The notes beneath the pieces are model-generated. The model was not told where the DNA came from. It saw nothing but the letters and a program-made list of their open reading frames with translations, and ran no database searches. DNA of 64,000 bases from Chakrabartia godavariana (lineage in GTDB: Bacteria; Pseudomonadota; Alphaproteobacteria; Sphingomonadales; Sphingomonadaceae): NCBI GenBank assembly GCA_005518185.1, contig RKSN01000003.1, forward strand, positions 310,001-374,000. The letters are read 5' to 3'. The position numbers were made by a program, and so were the translations under genes. The stretch's first letter is position 1. Each line of letters starts with the position of its first letter. Below are positions 56,255-60,640 of the stretch, in pieces.

Positions 56255-57021
56255 TTGCGCTCGGCATTATTTCCGTTTCCCTGATCAATGCTTCGTGGAT
56301 CGCGCCCGTACGGCGGGGCGCGCTGGAACTGATCGCCGCCGGGTCTTCGCGCGGCGTTGCGGCGACAGCGCGCTGCGACAGCACGACCATCTTCGGCGCG
56401 GTCGACCGGATGTTCATGGACCGCGCCGACCGGGTCGTCATGTCGGTTCGTCGGTCGGGCGAGACATTCCGCATCGTCCTGCCCGCGCTGGCCGCCTGCT
56501 TTGAGGATGCCTCAGCCGCGCCGACGCCCGAACGATTTGCCCGCCAATATCCGCTGCGCCGCTTCGTCTTTGACGTCGGTGCCGATGACCGCGCATTCCT
56601 CGCGCTGAAGGCGGGCTATGACGCCGCCGGACAGGCGCTGGGGCCCCGCCATGCGATCCTCGCGGCGGACGCTGTCGCCGCCCATGCGCGCGCCACCGCG
56701 CCCGGCATCTGGGCATTCGATCTGGAGGCGGCGAGGACCTGCCACAGCGACTATATGTGGCGCGGCTGGGCGGGGCTGATCCCGGCCTCCTGCGCGGGGC
56801 GGACCGTCCTCGTCCCGCTTGATGCGCAATGGTCAACCTGGGGCTGGCCCAACCGCTTTGCCACCCGCATGGGCGCGGCGGGAACGCGCATGATCCTGAC
56901 CGGCCCGGCCAAGTCCGGCGGGATCACTGCGGTCGAACAGATCCCGGACATCCCGCGCGACTATAAGGGGGCGTTGTGGGTGGCGGATATTGCGACGATC
57001 GGCCCGGCCCTGCGGGATTAG
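56224..57021 (+). CDS. Membrane-anchored or exported hypothetical protein
   Basis: Not confidently recognised. The 265-residue product has an N-terminal hydrophobic segment (LVRWLIALGIISVSLINASW) and a mostly periplasmic body. It has no clear catalytic motif. The C-terminal half (YMWRGWAGLIPASCAGRTVL, WGWPNRFATRMGAAGTRMIL, GALWVADIATIGPAL) recalls the last strands of glycerophosphodiester phosphodiesterase-like barrels, but the N-terminal His-Arg-Gly of active members is not seen, so an inactive relative is only a possibility. Normal codon use and a 31-bp overlap with ribF support a real gene. A REP-like pair separates it from ileS. Confidence 0.7.
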   Translation: MRIGALVRWLIALGIISVSLINASWIAPVRRGALELIAAGSSRGVAATARCDSTTIFGAVDRMFMDRADRVVMSVRRSGETFRIVLPALAACFEDASAAPTPERFARQYPLRRFVFDVGADDRAFLALKAGYDAAGQALGPRHAILAADAVAAHARATAPGIWAFDLEAARTCHSDYMWRGWAGLIPASCAGRTVLVPLDAQWSTWGWPNRFATRMGAAGTRMILTGPAKSGGITAVEQIPDIPRDYKGALWVADIATIGPALRD

Positions 57022-57055
57022 GAGTGTCCTCCACCCGGGGCGCCGCCACCCCAAT

Positions 57056-57128
57056 CCGTTTGTGTCGAGCGACGTCGAGACACGCGGGTGCGCACTGAGG
57101 TCCCTCGACTTCGCTCGGGACGAACGGA
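57056..57128. repeat. REP-like inverted pair in the ileS leader
   Basis: Two hairpins at 57062-57083 and 57100-57121 face each other around a GTGCGCAC centre (57088-57095), and both are flanked by CCGTTYGT. Stem/loop of the first: GTGTC-GAGCGACGTCGA-GACAC; the second, on the other strand: GTCCC-GAGCGAAGTCGA-GGGAC. Two stem pairs differ but still pair. The remaining 183-bp gap upstream of ileS shows no other feature; the element ends about 76 bp before the ATG. Confidence 0.82.
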
Positions 57129-57204
57129 AAGGCCGGACCCTGCAGGACTTGAGTTGGCCGAAAGGCTTTATTTGCGGGCGCGCATCCCGTAAGGCCCGCC
57201 GGTC

Positions 57205-60141
57205 ATGACAGAAGCACCGCGCCCCGACGCCCCCGACTATCGCGAGACCGTCTTCCTGCCGAAGACCGACTTTCCCATGAAGGCCGGCCTGCCGCAGAAG
57301 GAGCCGGGGATTCTGGCCAAGTGGCAGGAACAGGACCTGTACCGCCGCCTGCGCGAGGCGCGGAAGGGCCGCGAGAAGTTCATCCTGCATGATGGCCCGC
57401 CTTATGCGAATGGCGACATGCATATCGGCCATGCGCTCAACCACATCCTGAAGGACATGGTCGTCCGCACGCAGAGCCTGCTCGGCAAGGATGCGCCCTA
57501 TGTGCCCGGCTGGGACTGCCACGGCCTGCCCATCGAATGGAAGGTCGAGGAAGAATACAGGAAGAAGAAGCGCAACAAGGACGAAGTTCCCGTTGAGGAA
57601 TTCCGCGCCGAATGCCGCGCCTATGCGCAGAACTGGGTCAACCGCCAGCGTGAGCAGCTGAAGCGGCTGGGCATCAATGGCGATTGGGACAATCCCTACC
57701 TCACCATGGATTTTCAGGCAGAGGCGACGATTGTCGCCGAGCTGCTGAAGTTCGCCGAAAGCGGCCAGCTCTATCGCGGCGCCAAGCCGGTGATGTGGTC
57801 GCCGGTTGAAAAGACCGCGCTCGCCGAAGCTGAAGTGGAATATGAGGACATCGTCTCGACGCAGATCGATGTGGCGTTCGAGATTGTGGAAAGCCCGATC
57901 CCCGAACTGGTCGGCGCGCATGCAGTGATCTGGACCACGACGCCGTGGACGATCCCGGTCAATCAGGCGATCGCTTATGGGCCGGAGGTTGAGTACGTTG
58001 CGCTCCGTTTGAACTGGGCGGCTCGTGACGGTGCAGAGCAGCGCCGCTTTCCTTCCACTATCATTGTTGCAAAGGCTCTCGCAAACGATGCTTGTGCACG
58101 GGCGCAAGTTGGCGGCTGGGAAGTCGTTTGGTCTGGCAAAGGCGCCGACCTCGCCGGCACCATCGCCCGCCACCCGATGCATCATCTCGGCGGGTTCTTC
58201 GCCAAGCCGCGTCCGTTGCTCGCGGGCGATTTCGTCACGACCGACAGCGGCACCGGCCTTGTCCATATGGCGCCGGACCATGGCGAGGACGATTTCGACC
58301 TGTGCAAGGCGCATGGCATCGAACCCGTCTTCGCGGTGCAGGGCGATGGCAAGTATCGCGACGACTGGGCGTGGCTCGGCGGCGAAGGCAGTGTCATCAA
58401 CCCGAAGTTCAACGCGCCCGATGGCCCGATCTGCACCGCCCTGCGCGAAGCCGGCGGGCTGCTCGCCGCGAGCGCGGATTACAAGCACAGCTATCCGCAC
58501 AGCTGGCGGTCGAAGGCCAAGGTCATCTTCCGCTGCACGCCGCAATGGTTTGTGCCGATGGATAAGCCCATCAACCCCTCCACCACTAGCCTCACGGCTG
58601 GCGGTCCCCCTCCCCGTGCCGGGGAGGTTCTGGACGGTGCGACACCTCCCCGAAACGGGGAGGGGGACCAGCCGCAGGCTGGTGGAGGGGTAACCCTGCG
58701 CCAGGCCGCCATGCGCGCCATCGCCGAAACCCGGTTCGTGCCTGAAAAGGGCCGCAACCGTATCGGATCGATGGTCGAGGGACGCCCGGACTGGGTGCTC
58801 TCGCGCCAGCGCGCCTGGGGCGTGCCGATTACGCTGTTCGTCAACCGCAAGACGGGCCAGTATCTCAACGACCCGGCCGTCAACGCGCGCATCGTCGCGG
58901 GCATCAAGGAGCAGGGCGTCGACGCCTGGTCCGATGCGCGCGCGCAGGACTATCTCGGCAGCGACTACGCGCTTGAAGACTATGAGCGCGTGACCGACAT
59001 TCTGGACGTCTGGTTCGACAGCGGATCGACGCACGCCTTTGTGCTCGAATCGGGCAAATGGCCCGATCTGATGCGGCCCGAAGGCTATACCGGCCCGCTT
59101 GCCGACCTCTATCTGGAAGGCAGCGACCAGCATCGCGGCTGGTTCCAGTCGAGCTTGCTCGAGAGCTGCGGCACGCGTGGCCATGCGCCGTATAAGGCGG
59201 TCCTCACCCACGGCTTCACGATGGACCAAAAGGGCATGAAAATGTCCAAGTCGCTGGGCAACACCATCGATCCGCTGAAGGTGATGGAGCAGTACGGCGC
59301 GGACATCATCCGGCTGTGGGCGCTGTCGGTCGACTTCACCGAAGACCACCGCATCGGCGACGAGATCCTGAAGGGCGTCTCCGACCAGTATCGGAAGCTC
59401 CGGAACACGTTCCGCTATCTGCTCGGCGCGCTCGATGGCTATGACCATGCCAGCGAAGGCGTTGACTCCGCCGACATGCCCGAGCTGGAGCGCTATGTGC
59501 TCCATCTGCTGTCGGACCTCGACGCGACGCTGCGTCAGGCGATCGCGGACTATGACTTCAACGAATATACCCGCGCGCTGATCGACTTCTGCAATGAAGA
59601 CCTGTCGGCCTTCTTCTTTGATATCCGCAAGGACAGCCTCTATTGCGATGCGCCGGGCGATCCGAAGCGCCGCGCCTATCGCACGACGCTCGACATCCTG
59701 TTCCAGGCGCTGATCCGTTATGCAGCGCCGGTGCTGGTGTTCACGGCCGAGGAAGTCTGGACGACGCGCTTCCCGGACCGCGGCAGCATCCACCTGCAGG
59801 AACTCCATGCGCTGCCCGCCGACTGGCAGAACCCGGCGCTCGCTGAACGCTATGCCGCGCTGCGGGCACTGCGTGCCCAAGTGTCGGAAGCCATCGAGCC
59901 GATGCGCCGCGAGAAGATCGTCGGCTCCAGCCTTGCAGCGACCGTGACCGTCCCTGCCGATGCGCCCGAAGGCGATCTGGCCGAGCTGTTCATCACCGGG
60001 ACAGTGACGCGCGGGCAAGGCGCGGACGTGACTGTCGCCCCCTCCACCGATCCCAAATGCGGCCGCTGCTGGCGGCATCTGCCCGAAGTGGCGGAAGACG
60101 GCGCGCTGTGCGGGCGCTGTGACGGGGTGGTGAATGGCTGA
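57205..60141 (+). CDS. ileS: Isoleucyl-tRNA synthetase with an in-frame repeat insertion
   Basis: Charges tRNA-Ile and edits Val. It has 978 residues versus 938 in E. coli. HIGH is in GDMHIGHALNHILKDM and KMSKS in QKGMKMSKSLGNTIDP. The editing domain has AVIWTTTPWTIPVNQAI and GTGLVHMAPDHGEDDFD. The C-terminal zinc cysteines are DPKCGRCWRHL and CGRCDGV. Residues 457-496, between FVPMDKPI and TLRQAAMRAIAET, are Pro/Gly-rich and encoded by a palindromic repeat (see separate entry). Without them the protein would be 938 residues. The frame is unbroken. The stop overlaps the lspA start by 8 bp. The upstream leader carries a REP-like pair. Confidence 0.96.
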   Translation: MTEAPRPDAPDYRETVFLPKTDFPMKAGLPQKEPGILAKWQEQDLYRRLREARKGREKFILHDGPPYANGDMHIGHALNHILKDMVVRTQSLLGKDAPYVPGWDCHGLPIEWKVEEEYRKKKRNKDEVPVEEFRAECRAYAQNWVNRQREQLKRLGINGDWDNPYLTMDFQAEATIVAELLKFAESGQLYRGAKPVMWSPVEKTALAEAEVEYEDIVSTQIDVAFEIVESPIPELVGAHAVIWTTTPWTIPVNQAIAYGPEVEYVALRLNWAARDGAEQRRFPSTIIVAKALANDACARAQVGGWEVVWSGKGADLAGTIARHPMHHLGGFFAKPRPLLAGDFVTTDSGTGLVHMAPDHGEDDFDLCKAHGIEPVFAVQGDGKYRDDWAWLGGEGSVINPKFNAPDGPICTALREAGGLLAASADYKHSYPHSWRSKAKVIFRCTPQWFVPMDKPINPSTTSLTAGGPPPRAGEVLDGATPPRNGEGDQPQAGGGVTLRQAAMRAIAETRFVPEKGRNRIGSMVEGRPDWVLSRQRAWGVPITLFVNRKTGQYLNDPAVNARIVAGIKEQGVDAWSDARAQDYLGSDYALEDYERVTDILDVWFDSGSTHAFVLESGKWPDLMRPEGYTGPLADLYLEGSDQHRGWFQSSLLESCGTRGHAPYKAVLTHGFTMDQKGMKMSKSLGNTIDPLKVMEQYGADIIRLWALSVDFTEDHRIGDEILKGVSDQYRKLRNTFRYLLGALDGYDHASEGVDSADMPELERYVLHLLSDLDATLRQAIADYDFNEYTRALIDFCNEDLSAFFFDIRKDSLYCDAPGDPKRRAYRTTLDILFQALIRYAAPVLVFTAEEVWTTRFPDRGSIHLQELHALPADWQNPALAERYAALRALRAQVSEAIEPMRREKIVGSSLAATVTVPADAPEGDLAELFITGTVTRGQGADVTVAPSTDPKCGRCWRHLPEVAEDGALCGRCDGVVNG
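58574..58691. repeat. 118-nt palindromic repeat inserted within ileS
   Basis: The ends are perfect inverted repeats, ACCCCTCCACCA at 58574-58585 and TGGTGGAGGGGT at 58680-58691. They extend inward with small interruptions through GGCTGG and GTCCCCCTCCCC against GGGGAGGGGGAC and CCAGCC. Two inner hairpins, CCTCCCC-GTGC-CGGGGAGG and CCTCCCC-GAAA-CGGGGAGG, sit at the core. It is read in frame as about 40 residues (STTSLTAGGPPPRAGEVLDG and following). It resembles a type of intergenic palindrome I associate with sphingomonad genomes. Confidence 0.88.
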
Positions 60142-60640
60142 ACGCCATCTGCGGCTTGGCTTTGGTCTGGCAGTCGCGCTGTTCCTTGCGGATCAGGCGC
60201 TGAAGGCGGTCATGGTCGGCCCGCTGGCGTTGCAGGCCGCGCGGCAGATCTATCTGCTGCCGATCCTCAACCTGACCTGGGTTGAGAATTATGGCGTCGC
60301 ACTCGGCATGTTCCGGGCGAGCCATGAGACCGAACGCTGGGTGCTGGTCGGCGTGACCAGCCTGATCGCAGGCGTTGTCTCGGTCTGGATCACGCGCGAG
60401 AAGAACCGCATCGACGTGATGGGGCTTGGCCTCGTCCTCGGCGGCGCGCTCGGCAACATCGTGGACCGCATCCGGCTGGGCTACGTCGTTGATTTCATCG
60501 ATTTCCACATTGGCGGGTTCAGACCCTTTTTGGTCTTCAATCTTGCCGATGCGGCGATTACCATTGGTGTATTGATCCTTCTCGCCCGTGCCTTTTTCAC
60601 GCGCGATGCCAAGGCGGAAACGGAGACTGATAATGCGTAA
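60134..60640 (+). CDS. lspA: Lipoprotein signal peptidase (signal peptidase II)
   Basis: An inner-membrane aspartyl protease that removes the signal peptide of prolipoproteins. It has 168 residues and four membrane spans. The catalytic aspartates are in GNIVDRIRLGYVVDFIDFH and FNLADAAITIGV. The N-terminal FLADQALKAVM and NLTWVENYGVALGMF are conserved. The start overlaps the ileS stop (ATGGCTGA) and its stop lies inside the start of the following lipoprotein gene (ATGCGTAA), a typical ileS-lspA arrangement. Confidence 0.96.
   Translation: MAERHLRLGFGLAVALFLADQALKAVMVGPLALQAARQIYLLPILNLTWVENYGVALGMFRASHETERWVLVGVTSLIAGVVSVWITREKNRIDVMGLGLVLGGALGNIVDRIRLGYVVDFIDFHIGGFRPFLVFNLADAAITIGVLILLARAFFTRDAKAETETDNA

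Follow-up and report, generated by a model that had tools for sequence, protein, structure and literature searches.

The window, that is, the whole 64,000-nucleotide stretch of DNA analysed here, carries an intact ileS gene whose product scored 798.9 bits against TIGR00392 (cut-off 621.4) and is covered by Pfam PF00133 over residues 36-716 (Table 1). The original prediction had described about 40 extra residues (457-496) in this protein, and the single open frame of 978 aa bears them out; removing them leaves 938 residues, the length of E. coli IleS. A 1081-codon open frame on the minus strand (window 56833-60078) lies antisense to nearly the whole of ileS and is probably a by-product of high GC content.

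The inserted codons contain a palindromic element whose anatomy, 118 nt with perfect 12-bp terminal repeats and two GC-rich inner hairpins, was confirmed at the positions that had been proposed for it. Its ends read ACCCCTCC/GGAGGGGT, and the inner arms (58603-58628 and 58644-58669) are 26 nt long and 92% complementary. When folded as a DNA strand the element reached -54.3 kcal/mol, and none of 200 shuffled sequences equalled it; together with the complementary arms, this rules out a chance origin of the palindrome. We also considered a structured RNA family, but cmscan of positions 57000-60200 returned only a microRNA family at 26.5 against a gathering score of 84, which we took as an effect of the palindrome. 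Four of the six reading frames are open through the element. The claim that it keeps the frame holds for the whole insert and fails for the element alone, since 118 nt (39 x 3 + 1) would cause a frameshift; two further nucleotides, from the flanks or from an older loop, must therefore belong to the in-frame insert.

Table 1. Features of ileS and its palindromic element in the window, and palindromic inserts found in valS and truB
Feature	Position or locus	Strand	Evidence
ileS, isoleucine--tRNA ligase, 978 aa, intact frame	57205..60141	+	TIGR00392; PF00133
Inserted codons, residues 457-496, between MDKPI and TLRQAAM	58573..58692	+	Same-genus loops
Palindromic element, family F1, inverted pair, 118 nt	58574..58691	.	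Arms, fold z -8.42, genomic copies
Left terminal inverted repeat	58574..58585	+	12/12 complementary
Right terminal inverted repeat	58680..58691	-	12 nt, 100% complementary to left arm
Inner hairpin 1, CCTCCCCG / CGGGGAGG	58609..58627	.	8-bp stem
Inner hairpin 2, CCTCCCCG / CGGGGAGG	58645..58663	.	8-bp stem
Residues 461-493, predicted pLDDT <50, without secondary structure	58585..58683	+	AlphaFold2 model
valS palindromic inserts, site 486	L262, L331, L332, L334, L336		
valS palindromic inserts, site 453	L272, L311, L324		
truB in-frame palindromic insert, ~28 residues, sequence unlike the ileS element	L349, G000:C2:640500-641600	minus	Fold z -10.3

In an AlphaFold2 model of the window's IleRS, built with 41 aligned sequences (mean pLDDT 86.3, pTM 0.82), most of the insert is predicted to be unstructured, while the strand before it (441-450) and the helix after it (498-508) are both well modelled. 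This agrees with the insert being a flexible loop, and the earlier description of a disordered loop is thus borne out at the level of the model.

We searched the window's own genome (G000, a 3.17-Mb assembly of five contigs in which the window lies within contig C3) for further copies of the element. There were 58 matches at E<=10, and the 18 at E<=0.001 comprised the element's own match on each strand and hits at 15 places elsewhere, some of which adjoin one another, so that the search for copies elsewhere, proposed as a check, came out positive. One copy, at C1:159926-160048, is a complete inverted pair; others are half-units or outward-facing pairs. Halves and pairs are also clustered within ~1.2 kb at G000:C1:354722-355896. 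According to the codon score, among 14 sites including ileS, a gene-like frame on both sides crosses the ileS site only (0.43 and 0.40 in the flanks, 0.39 for the true ileS), and three others (L004, L007 and L019) reach the border of such a frame. Related DNA was found in one phage record and in 24 plasmid records, of which 23 are from Sphingomonas or Sphingobium. We take the element to belong to a repeat family of sphingomonads. The insertion had been presented as direct evidence that the element can move into genes; of this, the multiple copies and the in-frame position stand, but no movement was observed, and mobility is what the distribution suggests.

Next, we compared the site among relatives. 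Twelve of 13 genomes of the same genus, including the window's, were readable at the junction, and, in line with the expectation that residues 457-496 would be absent from close relatives, the element was not at the site in any of the 11 others. Seven of these carry short loops and two (G002 and G012) a non-palindromic loop of the kind that we call type A; the loop DNA of G011 groups with palindromic loops of another family than the window's, and G003 has a short repeat-like peptide, judged by translation only. We widened the comparison to the family with 100 genomes fetched of 146 matched, approximately one per genus, and with the best 80 of at least 591 related named loci. The junction was readable in 175 of the 180 loci (L105, L106, L109, L110 and L196 were dropped). 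An insert profile of 139 sphingomonad IleS proteins, obtained after removing those of <=880 aa and then two duplicates (141 to 139), showed that variability across the entire protein peaks at the point after FVPMDK, with a mean insert of 26 residues over the short-looped reference L184 (sd 14.9, maximum 67) and at least 10 residues more than L184 in 77% of the proteins. The loop is 2-69 aa long (median 29) in 138 Sphingomonadaceae and 0-13 aa in 31 loci of other alphaproteobacteria. The finding named beforehand as speaking against the insertion, equivalent loops of unrelated DNA in all sphingomonads, therefore applies to most sphingomonad IleS proteins; against it, about a quarter of these loops are themselves palindromic repeats, often of another family. 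An artefact of the window's assembly is unlikely, because many other genomes carry similar inserts at the same site.

We then classified what fills the loop. Among 99 junctions drawn from the family, 23 have repeat-derived loops, 29 have short ones (<=14 aa) and 47 have loops that are long without being palindromic, so that length alone is no sign of a repeat. Among the 103 loops that measure 60 nt or more, 29 have a fold z below -4; of 205 length-matched windows from the rest of ileS, only two do. When the loop DNAs were grouped by similarity, the palindromic ones fell mostly apart from the non-palindromic ones, among which three types (A, B and C) recur. The palindromic loops display at least six core motifs, and the signature motifs derived from them (F1-F6) matched 37 of 109 loops against five of 1293 windows, a comparison that leans towards ileS because the motifs were chosen after the loops had been seen; the fold test and the scan for perfect arms described below are independent of these motifs. 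A blast of loop DNA against flanks outside ileS, in which 41 of 151 loops matched other loci against 4, 3, 20 and 1 of 151 in the controls, is a weak comparison with one high control. In L063, a seemingly intact type-A loop is accompanied by a stretch whose fold is borderline (z -3.99).

Four families, the window's included, proved to be multi-copy within a genome. The F6 loop of L221 has 77 matches in its own genome (G097), the loop of L152 has 73 in its genome, G026, and 21 in G116, and the loop of L161 has 26 in its genome, G035, and 54 in G039, counts that include both strands and the ileS copy and thus stand for fewer places, although the copy numbers are lower bounds in some genomes. These matches bear on the idea that the loops of all families derive from one ancestral repeat, for which the extra residues that most sphingomonads have at the site could be quoted. 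We regard such a common origin as very improbable, because the loops draw on distinct, seemingly unrelated repeat families, still multi-copy in the genomes concerned, and because sister genomes differ at the site. That different, still multi-copy families occupy a single position in an essential gene across many genera speaks instead for repeated capture.

Types A, B and C (L034-L072, L138-L237) are scattered over the IleS tree, which requires 76 changes for all loop classes. An exchange of these types together with their flanking DNA by recombination was considered and set aside, since there was no consistent excess of identity beside the loop: single windows reached z values of 2.3-2.9, while the two nearest gave -1.9 and 0.7. 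More tentatively, types A, B and C could be old palindromes that have eroded, in which case the Sphingomonadaceae IleRS would be a standing landing pad for unrelated selfish palindromes. We find this doubtful, although, if true, it would mean that most of the family's loop is protein born from repeats.

To count the changes of state at the site, we used a FastTree tree of 142 IleS rows, including three outgroups, built from columns filled to at least 90%, by which the long loops were left out. The repeat-derived state, assigned to 38 rows, in part by motifs or by eye (L057 and L187), requires at least 31 changes, or 37 with the families counted apart. By the fold criterion alone, to which neither motifs nor inspection contributed, the 29 rows, including the window's, require at least 25. 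All these counts are approximate, as 25 of the 139 inner branches were drawn open, and they do not tell gains from losses. Neighbours on the tree seldom share a loop state. Sister pairs gave an ambiguous picture overall, with two of the ten alignments failing around the loop: L235 and L039, and likewise L155 and L078, suggest that a short loop received an insertion, while L058 and L071, and L232 and L176, suggest that an older loop was replaced. In one genus, L143 and L227 share an element within which they differ by 27 nt in frame. We saw no target duplication at the flanks of the ileS copy or in the sister pairs. Some close relatives that differ in whether ileS holds a palindrome (L199/L052, L235/L039/L066, L070/L177 and L155/L078) are suited to timing insertions.

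We also scanned the 99 family loci (289 kb of ileS, 1.34 Mb outside it) without recourse to motifs, for perfect inverted repeats with arms of at least 13 nt and a spacer of 3-110 nt. The ileS loop held 10 of them and the rest of ileS 11; other genes had none, 76 lay outside genes and three at edges. Genes were recognised here by their codon score, so that genes of odd codon usage may be counted as outside. With arms of 14 the counts were 6, 9, 0, 60 and 1, and with arms of 12 they were 10, 13, 3, 114 and 3; since three then fall in other genes, the zero for other genes is restricted to arms of at least 13. In the same scan extended to 135 ileS genes, which leaves out L078, L079, L094 and the window, whose terminal arms of 12 nt are below the limit, 31 of 32 perfect inverted repeats lie at four loops. 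In the numbering of L184, 17 are at residue 449, nine at 325-330, four at 817 and one at 301; the remaining one, at residue 624 in the KMSKS region, is likely due to chance.

Other genes also hold such inserts. In valS, read in 58 of 59 genomes (L333 is cut by a contig end), palindromic inserts (z <= -4.0) stand at two points, with five and three cases. In truB they stand at one point, in a biased sample that yields no rates (41 of 59 genomes, 11 of them chosen for length, with the longest frame taken, which is not TruB in some loci). Because valS and truB share the property, ileS is not unique. The statement that such insertions are rare outside Rickettsia is not supported by these results, given the repeat-derived state of 23 of the 99 family junctions and the palindromes in further loops of ileS, valS and truB. 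The window's element is one event at a recurrent landing site rather than a singular case.

Such a concentration could also arise at the moment of insertion, if the repeats or their movers favoured the DNA of the ileS region and selection had no part in making the hotspot. Many families are found at the same point, as this would have it, and, with arms of at least 13, the other recognised genes of the fetched neighbourhood hold no long inverted repeats against 21 in ileS. We nevertheless consider a target preference unlikely: families of different sequence would need a common target, other loops of ileS as well as valS and truB have been entered, and most motif matches lie between genes. In this motif-based scan 52 of 80 matches were between genes and one was in another gene, counts that lean towards ileS because the motifs were chosen post hoc.

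We therefore favour, with a probability of roughly 80%, the reading that a REPIN-like palindrome of sphingomonads sits in frame in a permissive loop of IleRS, that palindromes land widely, and that selection keeps the in-frame ones in loops of this kind. Several palindromic families would have spread in sphingomonad genomes, chiefly in intergenic DNA; within genes, insertions would usually be purged, and in-frame ones would survive in permissive loops. The host site in IleRS would be a variable connector that leads from a strand to the next helix; this loop is presumably disordered and able to tolerate new sequence. With four such permissive loops (around residue 301, at 325-330, at 449 and at 817 of L184), of which that at 449 is the most used, ileS would act as a repeated trap. 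Once in, an insert would be read as protein and change by in-frame indels, of which the 27-nt difference between L143 and L227 may be an example.

The loop would be nearly neutral on this reading of permissive capture. Its diversity might instead have been selected as useful, for example as an escape from an inhibitor acting on IleRS, with the repeats as one source of sequence among others. The fact that a single position in an essential enzyme shows such high turnover would fit this, as would the scatter of types A, B and C over the tree. Against it, no common peptide was seen among the families, the loops of at most 14 aa in 29 of 99 junctions are natural too, and the modelled loop is disordered; we hold a selected function to be improbable, somewhat more so than a target preference.

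REPINs are mobilised by RAYT transposases. The window's element resembles a REPIN in its two REP-like hairpin units in inverted order, an arrangement shared with the sister copy at G000:C1:159926, and differs in that its genome has no match to the RAYT-type family PF01797 (Y1_Tnp) at E<=10. PF01797 was present at E<=1e-5 in seven of 24 genomes chosen for a repeat-derived loop and in two of 23 chosen without one. A RAYT as the present mover is thus not supported, given its absence from the window's genome and from 17 of the 24 genomes with such loops. The 12-bp terminal inverted repeats recall MITEs.

If palindromic DNA is captured in this loop as we propose, it would suggest a route from parasitic DNA to protein. 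The short loops, fresh repeats and changed repeats would offer a natural series for following non-coding repeats into protein, as well as a cheap test of the load of extra sequence that an essential enzyme can bear.

Palindromes within coding DNA are already known, both as Rickettsia RPEs and as intragenic REPs, which occur in tRNA synthetases as well. The GTAG/CGTC REPs of Di Nocera et al. (2013) are described as intragenic in tRNA synthetases of X. oryzae, E. litoralis and S. alaskensis and also in truB, and occur as dimers; the authors argue that flexible loops may tolerate them (PMC3733652). The single same-site case in the main text of that work is recB of Xanthomonas rather than ileS, and the synthetases are not specified there. 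Among our loops, the F6 loop of L221 resembles a CGTC REP in having CGTC outside a stem of 8 bp that is capped by a 4-nt loop. The window's element differs from these REPs, as it has no unpaired CGTC or GTAG tetranucleotide at its ends; GTAG, CTAC and CGTC are absent from its ends and its interior, and one GACG lies in the spacer between the hairpins. A search of titles and the beginnings of abstracts in the open-access literature, supplements excluded, found no paper on this ileS site in sphingomonads; within that literature, the new part is the repeated capture of different palindrome families at the same site.

The closest parallel is with the RPEs, palindromic, multi-copy elements of ~100-150 bp that PMC3767692 describes as lying in frame in known genes, where they fall in solvent-exposed parts. 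Its Table 1 includes a 144-nt RPE-7 in ileS of Rickettsia japonica, and for RPE loci shared within Rickettsia the account given there favours a common origin without excluding hotspots. The window's element is likewise palindromic, 118 nt long, multi-copy and in frame in a conserved gene. With RPE-7 it has the host gene ileS in common, a comparison made at the level of the gene only. The likeness would lie in the mode of working, and we claim no membership in the RPE family. The differences are that the lineage is another one, that the sphingomonad families are GC-rich and that here different families occupy one site.
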